From a virus, in the IMG/VR virus record IMGVR_UViG_3300048555_000110, positions 1 through 28,266 of that record: DNA of 28,266 bases. The stretch is one strand, 5' to 3'. A program made the translations under genes and the position numbers. Every line of letters starts with the position of its first letter. The stretch's first letter is position 1. The notes under the pieces were generated by a model, which saw nothing but the letters and a program-made list of their open reading frames with translations, did not search any database and was not told where the DNA came from. Positions 10,332-28,266 of this stretch are shown here, piece by piece.

Positions 10332-10535
10332 GTGGAAAATTCTGTTGACAGAAAACTACCCGACCTTAGTAAGGATTTGCTCGACATCTTGGATGCTCGG
10401 TTTCCTTCTCGTTGTCCTGATCCTAAAGATAGTGAGCGCGAGATATGGATGAAGGTTGGTCAGAGGAAAGTCGTAGAGTTTCTACAAGACGTTTACGAAG
10501 AACAAAATACAACAATCATTTCAACAAAGGTATAA
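10332..10535 (+). CDS. Small hypothetical protein between exonuclease and head genes
   Basis: This is a 67-residue protein starting with GTG at 10332. It reads as a helical protein with LPDLSKDLLDILDARFP, then a Pro-Cys-rich SRCPDPKDSEREIWMKVGQRKVVEFLQ region. I recall similar small proteins next to the portal region in marine T7-like phages, but no function is assigned. No membrane segment or catalytic motif is visible. It fits tightly between two genes (4-base gap before, 2 after), which supports it being coding. An alternative start is not obvious, as no ATG occurs early in this frame. Confidence 0.6.
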   Translation: MENSVDRKLPDLSKDLLDILDARFPSRCPDPKDSEREIWMKVGQRKVVEFLQDVYEEQNTTIISTKV

Positions 10536-10537
10536 TT

Positions 10538-10747
10538 ATGTGCATGGGCGGCTCAACTCCTCCACCACCTCCACCTCCTCCACCACCACCGCCTCCACCT
10601 GCGGCGACAGCCGAACGCGTACAGCCTGCTCAAGCTTCCAAACGCGGTGGATCTACGGTTAAACGTAAAAGAGGTACAGCACAACTTACGCGTCCTTCTA
10701 TGGGAGGAATGGCTAAGGGAACTGCTGGTGTAAATCTTCCTAAGTAA
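10538..10747 (+). CDS. Polyproline gp7.3-like virion/tail assembly protein
   Basis: This is a 69-residue protein beginning MCMGGS followed by 14 consecutive prolines (10556-10600 region), then a basic Lys/Arg-Gly segment and a C-terminus with LTRPSMGGMAKG and GVNLPK. The C-terminal Gly-rich end resembles T7 gp7.3, a small virion protein that lies just upstream of the portal gene, exactly the position here. The upstream extension to 10445 overlaps the previous gene, so the ATG at 10538 is preferred; a second ATG follows at 10544. A 14-proline run would stall ribosomes without EF-P. The role as a tail or adsorption protein is inferred from position and C-terminal similarity only. Confidence 0.6.
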   Translation: MCMGGSTPPPPPPPPPPPPPPAATAERVQPAQASKRGGSTVKRKRGTAQLTRPSMGGMAKGTAGVNLPK

Positions 10748-15422: not shown

Positions 15423-18097
15423 TGCCTTTAATATCCACATCTGTACCGAATCTTGTACAAGGCGTTTCACAACAGCCTGATAACCTTCGCTACCCTGGTC
15501 AAGCTGAAGAACAAATAAACGCATTTAGTTCGGTAGTGGACGGGCTTAATAAACGCCCCCATCGTGAATTAATAAAGGGGTTAGGCACGACGCTTGAAGA
15601 CGACGCTCTCATACATTTTGTTGATCGTGATCCGCAGAATAAACACGCGATGATCTTCAACCACAACGGCGGTACAACGAGCGTTAATATCGTAGATGTA
15701 ACCACAGGTAACGCGATTACTACGAATGTAAGCGCATCCGCTGAACCTTATTTAAACAGTATTACTTCTCCTTTGTCGCAGCTTAGAGCGTTGACTGTAG
15801 CGGATTATACCTTTGTTGCTAATACGAATAAAGCAATAGAGATGACAAGCGACGTTTCTGACGCGTTAGAATACGAAGCTTTAGTGTTCGTTAAACTCGG
15901 TGATTACAGTAAAGAATATAATATTTTTATTGATGACGAGAAGTTCACTTATCGAAGCGGTGACGGGCAGGGCTCAGGTACAGATTCAACGGGAGGTAGT
16001 GCTGGGGATGGTAGCGCTGCAGATACTGAATATATCGCTTCTCAGTTGGATGTTACTTTAGAAACCACAGGCTCCGTTGCAAGCGTCACTGTAACAAACG
16101 GAGGTAGCGGATACACTTCACCGCCTGATGTTACATTTCCTAATCCAGGAGGAGGCGGCATAAGAGCCGAGGGTTACGCATCTTTAAATGGAGGAGTAGT
16201 TAGTGAAGTTGTAATTACTAAAGCAGGATCAGGATATACCTCCGCTACAATCGCGTTAACATTTAGTGGTGGAGGCGGATCAGGAGCGGCAGCTACAGGT
16301 AATGTACGATTAGGCAGTATTGCTCAGCATGTAATGGTTCGCGGTAATTTACTGAAAGTTAGCCACGCTACCACCGACTTTAATATCAGTGTAACCGACG
16401 GTCTGTCTGATCAAGCTTTAGGCGTTATTTACAAAGAAGTATCGAGCATAGCCGAGCTTCCTCAAAAGTGCTTTAACGGATTTAAAGTAAAGATCAAGGG
16501 CGATGTAGAACTCGTACAAGATGACTACTATGTTAAGTTTGTAACGAAGGATAATAAGGATGTTGACGATCACTTTGGTGAAGGCTCATGGGAAGAGGAT
16601 GTCGGATACGGTGTTAAAACGACATTGGACAACACAACCATGCCGATTCAAATCGTACCTACCTTGGACGTTAATGGTGTAATTACTTCCTATCAAATAG
16701 ATGTAGCTTCTTGGACAGGTCGATTAGTAGGCGATGATGACACGAATCCTTTACCGTCGTTTGTCACTACCGATCCTTTGATTCCTAAAAAGATAAATGA
16801 TCTATTCTTCTTTAAGAACCGTCTAGGCATATTGACAGACACAGCGGTTTTATTTTCGGAAGCAGATGAATACTTTAACTTCTTTCGTACCACAACTCTA
16901 TCTCTTTTAGACAGCGCTCCTATCGACGTTGGGGTCGCGCATACAAAGGTATCTAAGTTGACTCATGCATCTGCGTTTCAAGAGAAGTTAATCTTATTCT
17001 CCCCGCAATCGCAGTTTGTATTGAGAGGGTCGGATCTACTGACCGCTAAGACGGTTAACATATCGCCTATTACGGAGTATAATGTCAGCTCACAAGTGCG
17101 TCCCTTATCGCTTACTAACTATGTTTACTTCAGTTTCCAACGCGATTCTTACGAGGGTATCTATGAGTTCTTTGTTGATCAAGACAGTCAAGTGTTTGAC
17201 GCGTCGGAAATAACGCAGCAAGTACCGACCTTCTTACAAGGTAACCTCAGAAGTCTTTCAGGTAGTGCCAGTGAGAATGTCATTGTAGCTTCGTCTGATG
17301 ACGACCTATCCAAACTCTTTGTATATAAATATTATTGGAGTAATAAGGAGAAGATACAATCTGCTTGGATGCGTTTTGATTTTGATAAAGAGATTGTCGG
17401 CATGGGCTTTATTGACTCCGATTTATTCATCGTTACAAAGGACGGTTATCTCGAAAAGATGGCGATGGAGTCGGGCCATAAAGATCCAGGTTATGACTAT
17501 GCTTTACATTTGGACCGTCGCATAGACAACACTTATAGCGGAGTTACCCTATCGTCGTATGATACTATTAATAGAACGACGACTATAAGCGGAATGCCTT
17601 ACGATCCTGAAGGTGCGGTCGTTTATACAAAGACAGGAAGACGACTACCTATAACGCGTCTTAGTGCGACCTCATTTACGGTTAGATACGATGTTACGGA
17701 TAAACCGTTTTTTGTTGGCTTTGAATACGAGATGTCTTACACCTTCTCCATACAAACTTTAAAACAACCAACCGAGCGTGGAGGGCGATCATCTAGTAAC
17801 TTCACGAAACAACTACTAAGAAACGGAGCTATTGACTATTCAGACACAGGACACTTTACGGTGGAAGTAACGCCACTTTATCGTGATACTTATAGCTATG
17901 CTTTTAATCCTACTAAGCTTGGGGCAGATGCGGTTATTGGATCTCTTGTGCTTGATAGTGGATCGTTTAGGTTCCCTATACAAGCGCGTCATGACGAGGT
18001 GGAAATAAAACTAACATCTACATCTGCATTGCCTATGAAGTTATTGTCGGCAGAGTTTGAGAACTTCGTTCATTCCCGTTCAAAACGATATGGATAA
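15422..18097 (+). CDS. T7 gp12-like tail tubular protein B (nozzle) with Gly-rich insertion
   Basis: This 891-residue protein (T7 gp12 is 794) builds the tail nozzle. Gp12 motifs run throughout: the N-terminal LVQGVSQQPDNLRYPGQAEEQINAF, NDLFFFKNRLGILTDTAVLFSEADEYFNFF, EKLILFSPQSQFVL, VYFSFQRDSYEGIYEFFV and a C-terminal FRFPIQARHDEVEI. An extra block at about residues 180-297 has two Gly-rich repeats, TNGGSGYTSPPDVTF and TKAGSGYTSATIALTF, which are absent from T7 and explain most of the added length. Such GGSGYT repeats occur in phage fibres and adhesins. The start overlaps the gp11 stop by one base (TAATG). Confidence 0.96.
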   Translation: MPLISTSVPNLVQGVSQQPDNLRYPGQAEEQINAFSSVVDGLNKRPHRELIKGLGTTLEDDALIHFVDRDPQNKHAMIFNHNGGTTSVNIVDVTTGNAITTNVSASAEPYLNSITSPLSQLRALTVADYTFVANTNKAIEMTSDVSDALEYEALVFVKLGDYSKEYNIFIDDEKFTYRSGDGQGSGTDSTGGSAGDGSAADTEYIASQLDVTLETTGSVASVTVTNGGSGYTSPPDVTFPNPGGGGIRAEGYASLNGGVVSEVVITKAGSGYTSATIALTFSGGGGSGAAATGNVRLGSIAQHVMVRGNLLKVSHATTDFNISVTDGLSDQALGVIYKEVSSIAELPQKCFNGFKVKIKGDVELVQDDYYVKFVTKDNKDVDDHFGEGSWEEDVGYGVKTTLDNTTMPIQIVPTLDVNGVITSYQIDVASWTGRLVGDDDTNPLPSFVTTDPLIPKKINDLFFFKNRLGILTDTAVLFSEADEYFNFFRTTTLSLLDSAPIDVGVAHTKVSKLTHASAFQEKLILFSPQSQFVLRGSDLLTAKTVNISPITEYNVSSQVRPLSLTNYVYFSFQRDSYEGIYEFFVDQDSQVFDASEITQQVPTFLQGNLRSLSGSASENVIVASSDDDLSKLFVYKYYWSNKEKIQSAWMRFDFDKEIVGMGFIDSDLFIVTKDGYLEKMAMESGHKDPGYDYALHLDRRIDNTYSGVTLSSYDTINRTTTISGMPYDPEGAVVYTKTGRRLPITRLSATSFTVRYDVTDKPFFVGFEYEMSYTFSIQTLKQPTERGGRSSSNFTKQLLRNGAIDYSDTGHFTVEVTPLYRDTYSYAFNPTKLGADAVIGSLVLDSGSFRFPIQARHDEVEIKLTSTSALPMKLLSAEFENFVHSRSKRYG

Positions 18098-18563
18098 TGA
18101 ATACTATACTTACAAAGATTGCATTGTTGAGCCCGCAAACGGCGATTATGACGCAGATGCTTTGTACGCTGATATGAGAACGTTAGATATGCTTGAGATA
18201 ATAGGACTAGGCAATCATCCTCGTTTAGCACTTGTCGAATCCTACAAAGTAACCGAGAGACCCTGGACGATATTGACGCGTGATTATCGCATGATAGGCT
18301 CGTTTGGAGTCGCTAATTCTACGATTGAAGGCATGGGCGTACCTTGGTTATTAGGAACTCATCGTATGCATTTAATTAAAAGAACTTTTATCGCAAACTC
18401 AAAAGAGTGGCTAAGTCGTCTATTTAATGATAAATATGAAGTGTTAACTAATTATATTATGGAAGAAAACACACTATCTATACGCTGGCTAAAATGGCTA
18501 GGAGCGTCGTTTAATGACTGTGATGTAGAAGGTTATAAACAATTTACTTTTTATAAGAAATAA
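18090..18563 (+). CDS. T7 gp13-like internal virion protein A
   Basis: This is a 157-residue protein (T7 gp13 is 138). The segment LSRLFNDKYEVLTNYIMEENTLSIRWLKWLGASF aligns with the end of gp13 (DTLWNYVWVGNTSHIRFLKTIGAVF), which has a GNAT-like fold and is needed for core and tail assembly. The upstream part has PWTILTRDYRMIGSFGV, a strand-rich pattern. The ATG at 18090 overlaps the gp12 end by 8 bases; an upstream TTG at 18057 is possible but less likely. Acetyltransferase catalysis is not implied. Confidence 0.82.
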   Translation: MDNEYYTYKDCIVEPANGDYDADALYADMRTLDMLEIIGLGNHPRLALVESYKVTERPWTILTRDYRMIGSFGVANSTIEGMGVPWLLGTHRMHLIKRTFIANSKEWLSRLFNDKYEVLTNYIMEENTLSIRWLKWLGASFNDCDVEGYKQFTFYKK

Positions 18564-18568
18564 TCGTT

Positions 18569-19093
18569 ATGTGTGATCCTGTAACATTGACAACAATAGC
18601 GGTAGTTTCCGGCGGCGCTCAGTACATTGGTCAACGCCGTATGGCGCGTCAGCAAGCTCGTTATCAAGCGAGAGCGGCGGAGATGGAACGGCAACGGGCG
18701 ATGCAGGAACAGTCGGCTATGCGGATTCGTCAAGCACAGGAACAAGAAGCAGCTAACAGAGAATTGGCAGATGTATCGTTAAAGAGTCGTGAGGCACTCG
18801 CTAAAGCCCGTACAAGTGCAGGAGAAGCGGGAGTAAGCGGAGCATCTGTCGAAGCTTTACTTGACGACTACACCCGCCAGGAGGCTGCGTATAGAATCGG
18901 TATTAGTCGTCAGCGGGAACTACAGGATGTGCAGACAGGATTAGCTTTAACGGACGCTGGTTATCGCACACAAATGCGTCAAATAGATATTAACCGTCCT
19001 ATCAATAAACCGAGCTTCCTGACGGCTGCCGCTTCTACCGCATTAGGTGCTGCGTCGGCTTATCGCACAGGACTTGAATTACAAAAAGGATAA
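18569..19093 (+). CDS. T7 gp14-like internal virion protein B
   Basis: This is a 174-residue protein (T7 gp14 is 196). It starts MC like gp14 and has an Ala/Gln/Arg-rich helical body (RQQARYQARAAEMERQRAMQEQ), with TSAGEAGVSGASVEALLDD matching the IRAAIGESMLEGSSMDRI region of gp14. The C-terminus has a small-residue stretch ASTALGAASAYRTG. In T7, gp14 is ejected and inserts in the outer membrane as the first part of the translocation channel. Position after gp13 supports the call. Confidence 0.9.
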   Translation: MCDPVTLTTIAVVSGGAQYIGQRRMARQQARYQARAAEMERQRAMQEQSAMRIRQAQEQEAANRELADVSLKSREALAKARTSAGEAGVSGASVEALLDDYTRQEAAYRIGISRQRELQDVQTGLALTDAGYRTQMRQIDINRPINKPSFLTAAASTALGAASAYRTGLELQKG

Positions 19094-19095
19094 TA

Positions 19096-21345
19096 ATGGC
19101 TTCTTTAGACGACTTAGTAAAAGCATCACGTAGTAAACGCGTTCAAGTTGCGGATCTACCGGACGCTCCCAAGCTTCGGCCTACGATTAGAAGCGGCGGT
19201 CAATACACGGTAGCTGTACAGCAGGCAGGTCGTAATAAGCTGATGGATTTAGCGGACGCTTTATCTAAGGTTAATCCCATCCTAAAGGAATACAAAGGGA
19301 TTGCGGACATCGAGCTCGAGGAGTATAAACAAGAGTTAGCAAGCCTAAAGCCTGAAGAATTGCAGGGAATGCTAAAGAAAACCGAAGGCGAGTTTGATAA
19401 GATGTCGCGTAAAGGTGGGTTTACTGAATGGTTAGTATCACCTGTTAACGAAGTCAGAAAACGCCGTGCTTTAGGTCGTGCGGCTCATGATCAATTTCAG
19501 TTAAAAATGCTCGACGCTAACAGTCGTTTGTATAAACCTAACGAAGGTGACGACAAGTTAACTACCGCACAACTACTAGAACAGGAATACGATACATTTG
19601 TTTCTGAAAACCCCGCACTACAGGGCCAATATGCAGGTGAAGGTTTTCGTGAAGCAGTTAATCCTACCATACTCGCGCTTACTCAACGCTTTGATCAGCG
19701 AAAAGCCGAGCAGTCTAAAAGCGATACTTTACTAGGTAATACTTCTGCTATACACAGATTAGCAAAACGAGCACCTTTAGATAGCGAATTAGGCTACAAT
19801 ATCGCAATGGATGAAGCGTCTAAGATTTGGGACGACTTAAATGCGTTTTCTCCTGACAAACAACTTAAAGTAATTGAAAGTATATCGACGAATTTAGCGC
19901 GTGAAAAAGGCGGAGAACGTAAGGCGGAACGCTTTTTATTGTGGGCGCAATCCAATTTAAAGGTAGGTAATACGAGTTTTGCTGTGATGGAGGATCAAGT
20001 AGATCGTCTTGAAAGCGTGATTAGTGCTACCGCCGAAGCTTCTGAGCGTTTAAATGAAGAAGAACGCAAAGACAAAATGCGAGAAAAGAGTGCTGAGTTT
20101 GGGATTTTATTAAATCAGTTAGGACGCAACGGGAGCGTTACATTAAACCCAGGTGAAGAGCCAATTACAACGCGTGAGGCATTACTTGAAAGATTCCAAA
20201 TAGATGCGGAGCAAGACGAGGATAATATATATACAGGGGAAGTTTCCAGAGAATTTGAAAGAGTAATGGCTTCCGATTTAGATCCTAATCAATTTATTAA
20301 AAATAAGATCATTAAAGACTCGTATTCTTATAATGCGTTATACAACAACGTCAGCAGGCAGATGCTAGCTCTTGGTAGAAGCAGTGCTTTTAAAGATTTA
20401 TCGACAGACCCGGAAGGTGCTGGTGAGTTTATAAAAGTAGAGAGAGATCTTTACAATAAGTTGAAAGCCGAAGCTGACATGGAGTTGGAGAGAATTATAG
20501 CTTCAGGTGAGGCGGATAATCCAGCGGAAGCTACTCTTTCTTTGAATAAATTTATAGATAACAAGATGGTCGATTTTCAAAAAGAAGCCATTAATGATTT
20601 AGAACAAGTTAGAAAAAGACAGACTGAGGCAGACAAGGCAGAAAAAGAATACACACAACAAATTGCGGTTGATCCGGGTGAAGACCCTAAACAAGCAGCT
20701 ACTGAAAATACATTTTTTGATGAGTCTTTAACTGAGATGGTAGAAAAAAGCTCTAAAAATGTATTACTACTAGCTATTAAAGATATTCCTTTAGAAGAGA
20801 GACAAAAAGCTTTAGAGTATAATGATAAGTATTTTAAAAAAGCTTTAACGGAATCCGCTAAAGTCGCTACTGGTGGATACAAAAAACGTAAGTTTAAAAA
20901 TTATGGTGTAGCCTTAAAGTCAGGATTAAAAATTGTAAACCCTGAAAAAATGCGTATTAAGGAAAACCGTTTTGGGTTTGATAAGAGTTTAGTTGAAGTG
21001 GAATTAAATGAGCACAGCGCTGAAGAAATGCGAAAAGCTCGCGATCAATACTTTAGAATGGCGAGGATTCACGGTACATTTTCCGATGTACAAGTTTTAA
21101 AATCAGGCATAACTCCTGAAGGGATTGACGGATTTGATGTGGAAAACGATATAAACTCCGCTTCTTTCGTCCTTATGAAAGCAGATAGACTTAAAGCTAT
21201 AAAAGATGTAAAAACATTAGAAGAAGTGCCTGACGATGTAAAAGAGATTGCTGACTTAATTGGGGAGTCTGATGACTATTTAAAATTTATACGTAATCAA
21301 ATAAGGTTGCAGAAAGCGCTATTTGATCCAAACTTTGATAAATAA
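19096..21345 (+). CDS. T7 gp15-like internal virion protein C
   Basis: This 749-residue protein has nearly the exact length of T7 gp15 (747). It is mostly predicted helical and charged, with PDAPKLRPTIRSGGQYTV near the start and many Glu/Lys-rich stretches. In T7, gp15 forms the periplasmic part of the ejection channel with gp16. Coding sequence at 20701-20880 is about 30% GC by hand count, lower than the nearby structural genes. I see no enzymatic motif. A ribosome site AAAAAGGA precedes it. Identification rests on order, length and composition. Confidence 0.88.
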   Translation: MASLDDLVKASRSKRVQVADLPDAPKLRPTIRSGGQYTVAVQQAGRNKLMDLADALSKVNPILKEYKGIADIELEEYKQELASLKPEELQGMLKKTEGEFDKMSRKGGFTEWLVSPVNEVRKRRALGRAAHDQFQLKMLDANSRLYKPNEGDDKLTTAQLLEQEYDTFVSENPALQGQYAGEGFREAVNPTILALTQRFDQRKAEQSKSDTLLGNTSAIHRLAKRAPLDSELGYNIAMDEASKIWDDLNAFSPDKQLKVIESISTNLAREKGGERKAERFLLWAQSNLKVGNTSFAVMEDQVDRLESVISATAEASERLNEEERKDKMREKSAEFGILLNQLGRNGSVTLNPGEEPITTREALLERFQIDAEQDEDNIYTGEVSREFERVMASDLDPNQFIKNKIIKDSYSYNALYNNVSRQMLALGRSSAFKDLSTDPEGAGEFIKVERDLYNKLKAEADMELERIIASGEADNPAEATLSLNKFIDNKMVDFQKEAINDLEQVRKRQTEADKAEKEYTQQIAVDPGEDPKQAATENTFFDESLTEMVEKSSKNVLLLAIKDIPLEERQKALEYNDKYFKKALTESAKVATGGYKKRKFKNYGVALKSGLKIVNPEKMRIKENRFGFDKSLVEVELNEHSAEEMRKARDQYFRMARIHGTFSDVQVLKSGITPEGIDGFDVENDINSASFVLMKADRLKAIKDVKTLEEVPDDVKEIADLIGESDDYLKFIRNQIRLQKALFDPNFDK

Positions 21346-24300
21346 TGGACGAAGAATTAAATAACGAACAAGAAGACGAAAACGAGTTCTTCGATTTATT
21401 CGACACTTTAGCCGCGCCTTTTCGGGGTATTGAAGGAGCTTTCCACGGTGTTTATAACCTGGCGGACTATGTTCTTGCGGATTACTTGCCCGATTGGGAC
21501 GAACGTTGGTTAGGCGAATCTCAGTCTACAGTCGGGTCTCTTGTTGAAAGTGTATCTCAATTCACTGCAGGATTCGGTCCTATCTTCGGTATTGCAGGTA
21601 AGGCGGGAGCATTAGCTAAGGCGGGTAAACTTGGATCATTAGCTAAGTCAGGATCGCTTACACAACGGGCATTAAGTAACAATCTTACTCGTGGTACAGG
21701 CGCTGCAATCGCATCAGACTTCTCCGTGTTTAACGGGCAAGAAGCTAGGTTATCAAATCTTATTCAACAATACCCTGAACTTCAAAATCCTATTACCGAG
21801 TTTTTAGCTTATGAAGAAGGTGAAGGGGAAATAGAGGGTCGTCTTAAAAATGTTCTTGAAGGGCTAGGCTTGGAAGCCGCTACATTCGGCTTAATACGCG
21901 GATTAAAGGGAATTAAGAAAGGGAATAAAATACGCTCTGAAGGCGGCGGTCCTTTAGATGTTTATAAAGGTATGGTCAATGAAATGGGTGGAGACCTTAC
22001 GAAATTATTGCCGGACTTTCTTAAAGGAGGTAAGGAATTAAAAACAGAAACCCCTGAGCAGTTTGAAGCTACTATTGAGTCGCGTCCACCAAGGCAACCT
22101 TTTAAGACTAACCTAGAAGCGAAGCGGGGGCTGGAGGGTAGTCGCGGGGCAGATTATATCAAAGGACGTTTAGTAAAGAAGTTTTTACCTGAAGGACTTG
22201 ATCCTGCTGACGCAAAGGATGTCGAAACATTTATAGACACGATGGGCGAACGCCTATTTAACGATGTGTCTATGTCTGTCACAAACAAGATACAATCAAG
22301 AGGTCGTTTTACATTCTCCAATAAATTGGTAGAGATTCGTAAAAGCGTCATAGAAGAGGGCGATTTAAAGCGTCCTATGATTCATGAATTGTGGCATAGC
22401 TTAAGTCGTTACTTACCCAAAGCGGATGTAAATAATTTAACTAAGCAGTTTGATGCGGAACGCAGTAAGTTTTTAGACGATCTAAGCACAAGAGCTAAAG
22501 ATGAAAACTTAAGTGCTAGTGAGCGTTTACGATTAGCTAAAGAATTAAACGAATTTAAAAAAGGTAACTTTAATGAGGCTAATTATCGTTTCTCTGATAT
22601 AGACGAATACTTCGCAGAAGAAATGACTGATGCGTTTTTAGCGAAGTTAGATAGCGATGCTGCTCTTGCTAAATCAGGAACTTTTAAACGTCTTACGCAA
22701 GAAATGGCGATTCTTCTAAAAGATATATTTGCCAGTGTTAAATCTAAGTTAGGAATTGATCAAAGACAGAAGATATTTAATGACTTTGTAAAACAGCGGA
22801 ATGTAAAGATCCAGCGTCAAGCTCCCTTGGATATGTCAGGAAAAACATACGCTGATATGCCTGAGCTAGATCCGACCATAAAGAAAGCTTGGCAGGAAGC
22901 TGAAGTCGATATTGAGACACCTCGTGGTAGACTGCCTAACATTGGTCAGTTAAATAGTACGGATAAGTTTGACCAAGTAAGAATAGCTGGAAGAGATTGG
23001 GTAAAAGCGAATCTACCTGATCCAGGACCAAAAAGTTACGAAGAGATTACAGAAGAAGCTTTTGCTGATATTGACAATATTTCTCCTGACTTAGCTAAGA
23101 ACTTTAAAGCCACACAAATCAACTCCTTAGAAAAGGCTAAATCGTTGCGTGACGAAGTAGCGGTAATGAAAATGTTTGGTAAGTCTTTGGCTAAGAAGGT
23201 TTTAGATCAAGCCCAAGAATACAAGAGTGCTAAAGGAAGCGATGTAGCTTTAGCTAAATTAAAGAATACATTCCAAGAACTTATTGAGTTTGAAGCTTAT
23301 TATTCAGCTATTGGTCGTGAGCAGTCTTTAGGTCTTGGAGTCCGTCGTTTTACCGACGAATATAAACCTCGAAAAGTAGGTGTGGATGAAGGGGAAATCA
23401 TAGCGTCCGACGGTATTCGTAATAAATACTTAAACGAAAGTGGTGGATTAGATCCAGATCAGTTTATTAAGTTAGTTGACGAAGCTACAGACGATGGTGA
23501 TTTAGAGACGACGCTTACTCGAATGCTAAAGCTGGCGAAGAAAACGCAAGGTAATAAGTTTCTAAACATGACCAAGGAATATTGGATCAATGCCGTTTTG
23601 AGTGGTCCTAGAACGCATGTGGTCAATATGTCGGGTAACTTCTTAACCTCGTTCTTATCGACGCTTGAGACCGCTATAGGCGGAGCTTTGACCGGGAACA
23701 TGGACGTAGCTAAACACGCGTTTGCTTCGTGGGCTGATTGGGAAATGGTAAAGGAATCCTGGAAGTTTTCTAAGAACGCATGGAAGAAAGGTGAGAACCA
23801 ACTACTGCCCGATTCCAAAGCGTTTGATGATGGTCGTATTGATTCGATTACACCTGAAAACATGGGTCTAGCTCAAAGCGATAAGTTGTATAAACCGATG
23901 CAAAGCCTTGGGCAGTTCTTACGCTTACCTTCTAGGTTGTTATTAACTTCTGACGAATGGTTCAAACAAATGAACTACCGTCGTGCGGCTCGTTTTAAAT
24001 TAGCGATAGAAGGTCTACAAGGTGCAGGTAAGATAAAAGATCCGTATGCCTTAGCTGCGTTTATCGAAGATGGTATGCAGAATGTTATTACGACAGGAGG
24101 GCGATACTATTCAAAAGAAGCTTTTGTAAAACAAGCGACTGCCCAAGCGGACGCTAAAGGTTTAACAGATGGTCAAGAACGCGCAGCCTATATTACTGAT
24201 TATGTTTCTCAAAACTTCGACGAAAATATTTCCGCTATTGCTGAGTTTGCTAAAGATCAAACCGAGTATCTTACTCATACGCGAGAACTAGAGAAAGGTA

Positions 24301-25574
24301 CATTTGGATACGGGGTACAGCAATTTACAAAGAATTGGCCAGCAGCTAGTTTTGTTCTTCCGTTTGTTAGGACTCCCACTAATTTGTTGTCGTTTTCTTT
24401 TGAAAGGTTTCTTCCGGTCCAAGGTTACAGGGGAGGTAGGGCTTTACTTAGTTCAAAATACCGCAAAGAATTTTTAGCGGAGTTTAAATCTCCTGATCCT
24501 ATTATTCGAGCTCAAGCTTTGGGTAAGCTAACGACAGGGACAGTGATGACAGGCATGATCGTCGATATGATGTGGAACAATCGTGAATACATCACAGGAG
24601 GCGGGCCTAAGGACGAGAATCAAAAGAAAGCCTTAGAAGCCACAGGTTGGCAGCCTTACAGTTTTAAGGTAGGCGATAAGTACATTAGTTACCAACGTCT
24701 TGATCCTATCGGAACTGTTATCGGTGTTGTTGCTGATATGGTAGAAACAGGTGTTAAGCATCCAAAAGGTTTTAATCAAAGTCCAATGGAAGGCGTATTC
24801 GCCGCTATCGGGATTACCTTCTCACGGAATGTTACTAACAAATCTTACCTATCAGGTGTTCAAATGTGGACAGATGCTTTAAGCGAGCCTGAGCGTTTTG
24901 TACCGCGTTTACTACGAAACTATGCTTCGTCCGGTATTCCTATGAGTGGTTTCTTGGGTCAGTCTCAATATGGAGTCGGTGATCAAGAAGCGCGTGAGAT
25001 CCGTTCGATATGGGAAGCTATGAAGAACAAAACGCCTGGTTTACGCAACTCTCTTGACCCTAAACGGAATATCTTAGGCGAAGCTGTTACAATAGAGAAC
25101 TTGCCGCTTATAGGCGCGTTAAGTCCGATAGCTACAAGCTCCGTTAAAAACGATCCTGTATTGACGGAAATGGCGAACCTACAACACGCGTTTAGGAATC
25201 CTCATTCTACTTACAACGGCGTTATAGATTTATTAGAGTTTTACAACGATAAGGGTCAAACCGCCCATGATCGTCGCTTAGAGAAATTAAATTCTGTTCG
25301 TATTGGAGGCCGTACTATGCGTCAAGATCTTGAGCGTTTAATAAACTCTAGGCGTTATCAAAGTATGTCTCCTATTTCTGAACCAGGCTTTGAAAGTCCT
25401 CGAGTCGAAATGATTAATAAAGTTTTACGAAAGTATCGCAGTAAGGCTTTAGACGAGACCATGCAAGAGTTCCCTGAATTATCGAAATACTACGAGCAAA
25501 TATCAAAAGCTAGGTACGAACTTAGCATGGGAGCTGATCATTCTGATGTCCTTTCGGTATTGACGGCGCAATAA
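21345..25574 (+). CDS. T7 gp16-like giant ejection protein with zincin metallopeptidase motif
   Basis: This is a 1409-residue internal core protein (T7 gp16 is 1318), ejected to span the inner membrane. The N-terminus has FDTLAAPFRGIEGAFHGVY, ESVSQFTAGFGPIFGIAGKAG and RLSNLIQQYPELQNPITEFL, typical of this family. The T7-type lytic transglycosylase motif is not seen. Instead residues 347-351 read HELWH, an HExxH zinc motif with Glu348 as the catalytic candidate, and DEYFAEEM with Glu421 or Glu425 as a third ligand, like metallopeptidase domains of large polyvalent phage proteins. The C-terminal half has LSGPRTHVVNMSGN, LTSDEWFKQMNYRRAARF and FVLPFVRTPTNLLSFSFER, shared by ejection proteins. 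It overlaps the gp15 stop by one base. The peptidase role is inferred. Confidence 0.92.
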   Translation: MDEELNNEQEDENEFFDLFDTLAAPFRGIEGAFHGVYNLADYVLADYLPDWDERWLGESQSTVGSLVESVSQFTAGFGPIFGIAGKAGALAKAGKLGSLAKSGSLTQRALSNNLTRGTGAAIASDFSVFNGQEARLSNLIQQYPELQNPITEFLAYEEGEGEIEGRLKNVLEGLGLEAATFGLIRGLKGIKKGNKIRSEGGGPLDVYKGMVNEMGGDLTKLLPDFLKGGKELKTETPEQFEATIESRPPRQPFKTNLEAKRGLEGSRGADYIKGRLVKKFLPEGLDPADAKDVETFIDTMGERLFNDVSMSVTNKIQSRGRFTFSNKLVEIRKSVIEEGDLKRPMIHELWHSLSRYLPKADVNNLTKQFDAERSKFLDDLSTRAKDENLSASERLRLAKELNEFKKGNFNEANYRFSDIDEYFAEEMTDAFLAKLDSDAALAKSGTFKRLTQEMAILLKDIFASVKSKLGIDQRQKIFNDFVKQRNVKIQRQAPLDMSGKTYADMPELDPTIKKAWQEAEVDIETPRGRLPNIGQLNSTDKFDQVRIAGRDWVKANLPDPGPKSYEEITEEAFADIDNISPDLAKNFKATQINSLEKAKSLRDEVAVMKMFGKSLAKKVLDQAQEYKSAKGSDVALAKLKNTFQELIEFEAYYSAIGREQSLGLGVRRFTDEYKPRKVGVDEGEIIASDGIRNKYLNESGGLDPDQFIKLVDEATDDGDLETTLTRMLKLAKKTQGNKFLNMTKEYWINAVLSGPRTHVVNMSGNFLTSFLSTLETAIGGALTGNMDVAKHAFASWADWEMVKESWKFSKNAWKKGENQLLPDSKAFDDGRIDSITPENMGLAQSDKLYKPMQSLGQFLRLPSRLLLTSDEWFKQMNYRRAARFKLAIEGLQGAGKIKDPYALAAFIEDGMQNVITTGGRYYSKEAFVKQATAQADAKGLTDGQERAAYITDYVSQNFDENISAIAEFAKDQTEYLTHTRELEKGTFGYGVQQFTKNWPAASFVLPFVRTPTNLLSFSFERFLPVQGYRGGRALLSSKYRKEFLAEFKSPDPIIRAQALGKLTTGTVMTGMIVDMMWNNREYITGGGPKDENQKKALEATGWQPYSFKVGDKYISYQRLDPIGTVIGVVADMVETGVKHPKGFNQSPMEGVFAAIGITFSRNVTNKSYLSGVQMWTDALSEPERFVPRLLRNYASSGIPMSGFLGQSQYGVGDQEAREIRSIWEAMKNKTPGLRNSLDPKRNILGEAVTIENLPLIGALSPIATSSVKNDPVLTEMANLQHAFRNPHSTYNGVIDLLEFYNDKGQTAHDRRLEKLNSVRIGGRTMRQDLERLINSRRYQSMSPISEPGFESPRVEMINKVLRKYRSKALDETMQEFPELSKYYEQISKARYELSMGADHSDVLSVLTAQ

Positions 25575-26703: not shown

Positions 26704-28266
26704 ATGAGCAATACGCAACTTAGACTCCGCAGAGGCACTACCGCCGAACACGCAAACTTTACAGGCGCTCAAGGCGAGTTGACCGTCGATACCGATAAGA
26801 ACGCATTGGTACTACATGACGGGGCGACTCAAGGGGGTAAGGTTATTGATAACAATGTTACATCCACAGGCACGAGTGTATCGAGAAGCCTTGAAGACCG
26901 TTTTGCTGATTATAGAAACATAATGGATTACATCCCCGAAAATCTTAGAGATGAAATTACTTCAGCTACTTCTACAACTGTTACCTCTACGCTTACACCT
27001 TTGACTTCGTATTTTAATACAGCTTTAGCTGACGCTTCTGCGAATACGATGAACAAATCTATTTATATACCAGCCGGTCGGTATAGGTTAGGTTCAATTA
27101 CGATTCCTCAAAGAGTTAGATTAATAGGTGAATTTATAGGTCGAGCAACAAATGATATTTGGGGTTCCACTTTAGACTTCTCTGAAGATGTCAGTAGTGC
27201 TGGCGATACTAAAGCTTTGATAATGGGAGGTGAAGGTATAGTTTTCCGTAATCTAGGAATCTTAGGCCCTGGAAGATCAGAGTCAGGGACTTTTGGCGTA
27301 TATGCTGGTGTAGCTACATCGGAAGCTCTTGGTCAAAGAATTGACATAGATCACATACAAATAAAAGATTTTGAAACAGGTATATGTATTAGTCGTTGGT
27401 CAAATCGTATTATCAACGCTCGTGTCGGTGAGTGTAATACGGGAATTAGATTAGCAGAACAGACCAATGATACTTATATATTAAACTGCTCTATTGGGGC
27501 ACCCGGAACGGGTTCAGCCAATCCTACAACCGCAATAAAAATAGACCAAAACGCTGGGGATGGTATATTTATAAAGAACAACCATCTCGAACAAAACTAT
27601 AGAACTTTAAATATAGAAGGCGGTACACAGGTTGTTATTAAAGATAATTACTTTGAAGCTACTAACAGCGAAAGTATTTATATAAACGATACAACTGACA
27701 ACATCCCTAAAGGTTACAATATCGTTATAAAGGATAATTTCTTTGTTAATTATAACAACAACGCAGATACAAACGGGCGAAAGCACTTACATTTAGACGC
27801 TGGCGGCCCTGTTTGGATTGAAGGAAATCATCTAGCTCAATATAAATCCAGCACAAACACAGGAGTGGAATATGGTTTTGATTTTAACGCGACTTCAAAT
27901 TTTCAAGGTGTATATGTAGGTCTAAACTCGATGGGTGCGCATCCTACTAACTTTATTACATCAGCGGGATTAACACAGGCTGAAAAAAGAAAGATTAAAT
28001 CACCATTTAATTATAGTAAGAGTTTCCTTTTAGATTTAAGCACAGGAACTTTAGATAAAACTTTCTTTAGCCTTCCTACCCAAGCTTCCCAAGACAATGC
28101 TAATGCTAGATCTTATTATGTAGTAAACGATATAAAGCTAACTGTCGTAGAAGCTTTAAACGCAGATATTGATCACGTTAGGTTCGGTAAGACTAATAAT
28201 ATATCTCAGTTTATGGATAATAGTACCAAACTTAATTTGGGAGGTAATATTAGTGTCAATTCAGTT
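26704..28266 (+). CDS. Second tail fibre / tailspike with beta-helix (3' end missing)
   Basis: The frame is open from the ATG at 26704 to the window end (521 codons) with no stop. The first 40 residues, LRRGTTAEHANFTGAQGE then LTVDTDKNALVLHDG, match the hub domain typical of phage receptor-binding and major-tropism-determinant-like fibres. A Ser/Thr-rich linker follows. From about residue 120, IYIPAGRYRLGSITIP and VRLIGEF begin a pectate-lyase-type right-handed beta-helix, continued by repeated short strands such as NAGDGIFIKNNHLEQN and VVIKDNYFEATNS. This body could bind or cleave a surface polysaccharide, but no catalytic residues can be assigned. It probably sets host range. Confidence 0.85.
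   Translation, partial: MSNTQLRLRRGTTAEHANFTGAQGELTVDTDKNALVLHDGATQGGKVIDNNVTSTGTSVSRSLEDRFADYRNIMDYIPENLRDEITSATSTTVTSTLTPLTSYFNTALADASANTMNKSIYIPAGRYRLGSITIPQRVRLIGEFIGRATNDIWGSTLDFSEDVSSAGDTKALIMGGEGIVFRNLGILGPGRSESGTFGVYAGVATSEALGQRIDIDHIQIKDFETGICISRWSNRIINARVGECNTGIRLAEQTNDTYILNCSIGAPGTGSANPTTAIKIDQNAGDGIFIKNNHLEQNYRTLNIEGGTQVVIKDNYFEATNSESIYINDTTDNIPKGYNIVIKDNFFVNYNNNADTNGRKHLHLDAGGPVWIEGNHLAQYKSSTNTGVEYGFDFNATSNFQGVYVGLNSMGAHPTNFITSAGLTQAEKRKIKSPFNYSKSFLLDLSTGTLDKTFFSLPTQASQDNANARSYYVVNDIKLTVVEALNADIDHVRFGKTNNISQFMDNSTKLNLGGNISVNSV

Follow-up and report, generated by a model that had tools for sequence, protein, structure and literature searches.

A gluzincin-like metallopeptidase domain as a probable exchangeable cassette in the gp16-like ejection protein of a T7-like virus

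The metallopeptidase (MPTase) domains of polyvalent proteins have been described as a helix, three strands, a helix bearing HExxH and a helix bearing glutamate, and fall into 12 clades (Iyer et al. 2017, PMC5512222). Auto-processing was proposed for these domains in the same work, which cites the processed P1 protein DdrB, and the N4 virion RNA polymerase, which includes an MPTase domain, is packaged unprocessed (PMC5512222). The structure paper on N4 points out that HExxH is also found in non-peptidase enzymes (PMC12633501). Polyvalent cargo domains are already known in N4-like and P1-like phages. The term 'internal virion' is absent from the main text of PMC5512222, and the open-access literature that we searched yielded no paper describing the slot reported here.

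The window analysed here, meaning the whole stretch of DNA, is a fragment of 28,266 bases from a marine virus with a T7-like layout. Pfam matches within it include T7_gp14, Phage_T7_Gp13, tail tube and nozzle proteins, the T7 tail fibre and the T7 capsid assembly protein, and its single-subunit RNA polymerase shares up to 35% identity with phage polymerases. On the plus strand, a gp13-like protein (18057-18563; Pfam Phage_T7_Gp13 E 4.7e-6, PHROG 308 E 1.7e-26) is followed by a gp14-like internal virion protein (18569-19093; Pfam T7_gp14 E 6.5e-25), by a 749-residue protein called gp15-like from gene order (19096-21345) and, directly downstream, by a gp16-like ejection (internal virion) protein of 1409 residues (21345-25574). 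The last of these matched PHROG 6651 (internal virion protein) with E 2.4e-55, and its C-terminal half resembled 'internal virion protein D' of Pelagibacter, Roseobacter and other phages by tblastn (roughly 22-30% identity). The initial annotation had called this protein gp16-like, an assignment borne out by PHROG, tblastn and profile comparisons alike. From gene order and this homology, we infer that the protein is packaged and ejected ahead of the DNA. Elsewhere in the window, positions 695-1528 resemble, by eye, a tyrosine recombinase/integrase in this T7-like genome; 1525-2175 encodes a protein with an HNH endonuclease domain (Pfam HNH E 7.9e-6); 10445-10747 is a small open reading frame containing a long proline run; and the open reading frame at 26704-28266 has an Mtd_N domain (E 3.8e-16) and a weak pectate-lyase-like match.

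We split the 1409-residue protein into an N-terminal module, a zincin, a linker and a core, and searched the profile of each against seven cultured phages and the complete S45-C18 genome. The core (residues 700-1409; 23442-25571, plus strand, as are all parts of this protein), delimited by tblastn and profile matches, was found in all of them. The N-terminal module (residues ~15-195; 21387-21929), recognised by profile matches in relatives without a zincin, was found in every one of these phages except HTVC019P (E 5e-37 to 1.5e-6). The putative zincin-type metallopeptidase domain (residues ~250-495, ~245 residues; 22092-22829), placed by conservation, model and relatives, gave nothing significant in the same set (best E about 0.04). 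Residues 496-699 (22830-23441) form a fast-changing linker, set apart by divergence and profile comparison. Pfam detected no known polyvalent domain in the window's own 1409-residue protein.

The motif HELWH, which had been reported at residues 347-351, was confirmed at that position in the open reading frame spanning 21345-25574 (22383-22397, plus strand); sequence, homologues and model agree in predicting it to be the zinc-binding and catalytic helix. Given the composition of the protein, HExxH is expected 0.0067 times by chance and appeared in 0.6% of shuffles. H347, E348, L349, W350, H351, D420, E421 and E425 were each invariant among distinct close homologues (66/66), an invariance that is partly selected because PMIHELWH and DEYFAEEM were among the six retrieval patterns. 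L071, which has neither exact pattern, still contains HELWH and DEYFVE, and slot zincins retrieved through the N-terminal module only retain HExxH and Tyr-x6-Glu. Likewise, part of the invariance of E421, F423 and E425 in alignment A3 was imposed by a selection rule that required E-aromatic-F-x-E together with HExxH; the case for conservation draws instead on the 66 homologues, on the ten sequences described next and on the divergent slot zincins.

The initial annotation had looked for the third zinc ligand in DEYFAEEM (residues 420-427), naming both glutamates. Because ten further sequences (DEYFAV or DEFFAV) retain Y414 and E421 and have valine in place of E425, we take E421 (22605-22607, plus strand), rather than E425, as the most probable third ligand. 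E421 and Y414 persist even among very divergent relatives, and E425 does not; the expected conservation of the motif residues held for both histidines, Glu348 and Glu421, and failed for Glu425. In the structural model, E421 falls in the helix at 174-194. Tyr414 (22584-22586, plus strand), seven residues before Glu421, is the predicted oxyanion tyrosine, judged from homologues and from a spacing (Y-x6-E) that equals that between the oxyanion Tyr190 and the zinc ligand Glu197 in the protease PPEP-3. Compared with L003 and L007, the domain gave pN of 0.10 and 0.19 and pS of 0.83 and 0.74 (the ranges cited for the domain being pN 0.10-0.19 and pS 0.74-0.86), and the linker changed non-synonymously at about twice the rate of the domain in the same comparisons. 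By these substitution patterns, the domain is under purifying selection.

Given 44 diverse sequences, AlphaFold2 predicted a helix, then three strands, then the helix bearing HExxH and finally the one bearing Glu (pLDDT 86.8). This model supersedes one from 55 close homologues that was all-helical and without a fold match. Foldseek with the diverse-alignment model returned mostly zincin metallopeptidases from the PDB, with minigluzincins among the best rows (probability 0.75-0.98) and BlaR1, ArdC and Wss1/SPRTN also present, along with non-zincin matches; the best E was 0.085, and none fell below E 0.001. Against viral models the best match reached E 1.6e-6; polyvalent proteins were also matched, as were an N4-like virion RNA polymerase and a crAss-like 'zincin protease' fusion. 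Pfam and NCBIfam gave no match for the domain itself, and sequence profiles against the PDB gave chance matches only. Searches of sequenced phages found no match with the window domain or with one divergent relative as query, and only matches of E >= 0.1 with two other relatives. A zincin fold for residues ~250-495 is thus likely from the model: the zincin core and the mostly zincin PDB matches agree with the fold originally proposed, while a PDB match below E 0.001 was not obtained. The gluzincin-like layout that had been ascribed to the polyvalent phage protein kind is also seen in the model, where HExxH is followed by a downstream Glu helix and the topology matches that of polyvalent MPTases. 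In L177, a divergent member of the family lies in a large polyvalent-type protein that also has LPD38, and in L175 in one with a weak LPD39 match. In the domain tree, copies from gp16-like proteins separate from polyvalent-type copies with full support, subject to a rooting caveat and several long branches. One contig of a bacterial metagenome-assembled genome (L172) also codes for a divergent family member.

To sample the region between N-terminal module and core with less bias, we considered loci fetched with the N-terminal module alone; all relatives are metagenomic contigs, and the slot statistics come from a handful of loci. Some of these loci have the HELWH domain in the slot, five have a different zincin-like motif there (L254, L255, L256, L259 and L261), L260 has no zincin-like motif, and in L257 and L258 the slot is almost empty. 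The L257 protein is 330 residues shorter than that of the HELWH-bearing L027; identity between the two is 73% across 897 residues in the linker and core and 64% across 281 residues in the N-terminal part. Since L257 and L258 are different contigs that share 79% identity, a single misassembly is unlikely. A protein scan with the core alone returned three close contigs. In one group of alternative slot zincins, HExxH and Tyr-x6-Glu fell in register with the family profile on alignment (Prob 98.1, E 8e-14); a second group aligned weakly with that profile and strongly with the first group.

The slot also varies in length and content. Among HELWH-bearing relatives, 51-360 residues separate the N-terminal module from the zincin, and in a dozen homologues, likewise in the window protein, the distance is only 51-65. 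A Pfam scan of ten slot stretches placed ART-PolyVal above its cut-off in two (L068 and L261), a three-fold HTH-like repeat in L016 (HTH_40 E 7.1e-12) and a weak ParB_N match, possibly a ParB-like domain, in L017; the remaining stretches had no Pfam domain above its cut-off. By eye, the slots of L022, L037 and L056 resemble those with ART-PolyVal, and those of L014, L030, L035 and L038 resemble the HTH-repeat slot of L016. Because close relatives have the slot empty or otherwise filled, it reads as a cargo bay and not as the site of a replacement for a cell-wall cutter; in sequence terms, it resembles the cargo bay of polyvalent proteins, here within a T7-like ejection protein.

Together, these observations appear to suggest that the domain is a gluzincin-like, polyvalent-type metallopeptidase that forms an exchangeable cassette in the slot of a gp16-like ejection protein and acts soon after ejection, a reading to which we assign a probability of roughly 0.66. 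Its basis in sequence and model is the intact active-site residues, the strong conservation, the zincin-like topology and the variable slot, from which we infer zinc binding and proteolysis by the domain. The gp16-like protein would be packaged in the virion and ejected before the DNA; soon afterwards, the domain might cut the ejected protein, freeing slot cargo or the N-terminal module from the core, or alternatively might cut an early host target. A broader view, which we hold at slightly better than even odds, is that in marine T7-like phages the gp16-type protein is a modular delivery vehicle whose slot, set between an unchanging N-terminal module and an unchanging core, stays empty or is loaded with effector cassettes that can replace one another (several zincin types, ART-PolyVal and HTH repeats). 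If this is true, the DNA-ejection machine also serves as an effector injector. Because loaded and empty forms of nearly the same protein occur naturally, an exchangeable cargo slot of this kind in a T7-like gp16-type protein would offer a clean test system for ejected domains.

Several modes of action were weighed. Self-processing, in which the domain would cleave the ejection protein that carries it, either while the virion is assembled or once the protein has been ejected, and so separate the N-terminal module and any slot cargo from the core, is possible and held tentatively: in long-slot relatives the zincin sits between the added modules (ART, HTH repeats and the possible ParB) and the core, and auto-processing is what Iyer et al. 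2017 proposed for polyvalent MPTases on the example of DdrB. However, the dozen homologues with short distances and the window protein leave little between N-terminal module and zincin, and a release role in the window would free only the N-terminal module, because no other cargo is recognisable there. Relatives with an empty slot, moreover, manage without a zincin, and the unprocessed packaging of the N4 virion RNA polymerase, which has an MPTase domain, weakens cleavage before packaging as a general rule. We regard as near equal in standing the other mode, an ejected protease that early in infection cuts a host protein, be it a defence, stress or transcription factor. The cassette is optional and swappable, and its slot also accepts ART-PolyVal, whose type is predicted to target macromolecules of the host; yet divergent phages show good conservation of the domain, which would be unusual if it tracked fast-changing host targets. 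A structural or non-proteolytic role, whether as a dead enzyme or as another type of HExxH enzyme, is unlikely. The occurrence of HExxH outside peptidases speaks for it, but the active-site residues have been kept against saturated synonymous change and divergent slot zincins retain Tyr-x6-Glu. That the motif arose by chance within a helical structural protein, as the all-helical model from the shallow alignment might have suggested, is refuted by its conservation, to which the low chance expectation and the second model add.

Both favoured modes stand well above cleavage of peptidoglycan cross-links in place of the gp16 transglycosylase, the weakest of the main modes of action and in our estimate a very improbable one. 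In its favour, Pfam confirmed that the gp16-like protein has no detectable N-terminal transglycosylase, and detected none anywhere in the 1409-residue protein, nor in the upstream gp15-like protein or its 21 closer homologues. The transglycosylase domain SLT is absent from the window and from 15 of 17 relatives. When 24 gp15-like proteins were scanned with Pfam, SLT appeared in two only; these divergent relatives, L224 (below cut-off) and L230 (above), encode it within the open reading frame immediately upstream of the zincin and so have both enzymes. Conversely, neither a zincin nor a transglycosylase was detected in seven cultured relatives with the same core (six of the seven with the same N-terminal module), the latter enzyme having been looked for in their gp15 by motif search only. 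Since the gp16 and gp15 of zincin-less relatives likewise showed no transglycosylase, its absence does not imply replacement by a zincin. The earlier suggestion of a peptidase instead of a transglycosylase is thus not supported, given relatives that show neither, relatives that have both and close relatives without the domain. In addition, the Foldseek list consists of protein and peptide zincins, no known peptidoglycan-hydrolase family in Pfam or NCBIfam matched the domain, and, to our knowledge, the metal-dependent peptidoglycan peptidases M15 and M23 have folds other than zincin.

We compared the window protein with known systems. Like T7 gp16 (PMC8954989), it is large and comes third among the ejection proteins, its gene following those of the gp14- and gp15-like proteins; unlike T7 gp16, it is without an N-terminal transglycosylase, a feature that is T7-specific and not universal in the family, and it has no sequence match to the solved T7 gp16, because the core profile gave no relevant chain in the PDB. 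An enzymatic domain inserted in a gp16-like protein has a parallel in the tetrameric ejection protein of the PhiM1 ejectosome (residues 268-528; PMC11440229), although the PhiM1 insert is endolysin-like and neither the N-module nor the core profile of the window matched PhiM1 ejection proteins significantly. With PPEP-type Pro-Pro endopeptidases and lethal-factor-like gluzincins (PMC12828418) the domain shares HExxH and a putative catalytic Tyr that precedes the predicted third-ligand Glu by seven residues, but it has no sequence match to them, and its HExxH-to-Tyr insert is longer than in PPEP-3 (67 residues from the first His, against 37). The predicted HExxH helix, three-stranded sheet and downstream Glu helix are as in polyvalent MPTases (PMC5512222), and like polyvalent proteins the carrier is large, multidomain and probably injected, with ART-PolyVal in slots of its relatives; unlike those MPTases, the domain has no Pfam match and its carrier is a T7-like gp16-type ejection protein. 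Among studied proteins, the nearest analogue is the N4 virion RNA polymerase, whose C1 domain (PMC12633501) likewise has HExxH and belongs to a giant ejected protein in the role of gp16, the difference being that the N4 domain is fused to an RNA polymerase, whereas the window protein has a gp16-like core.
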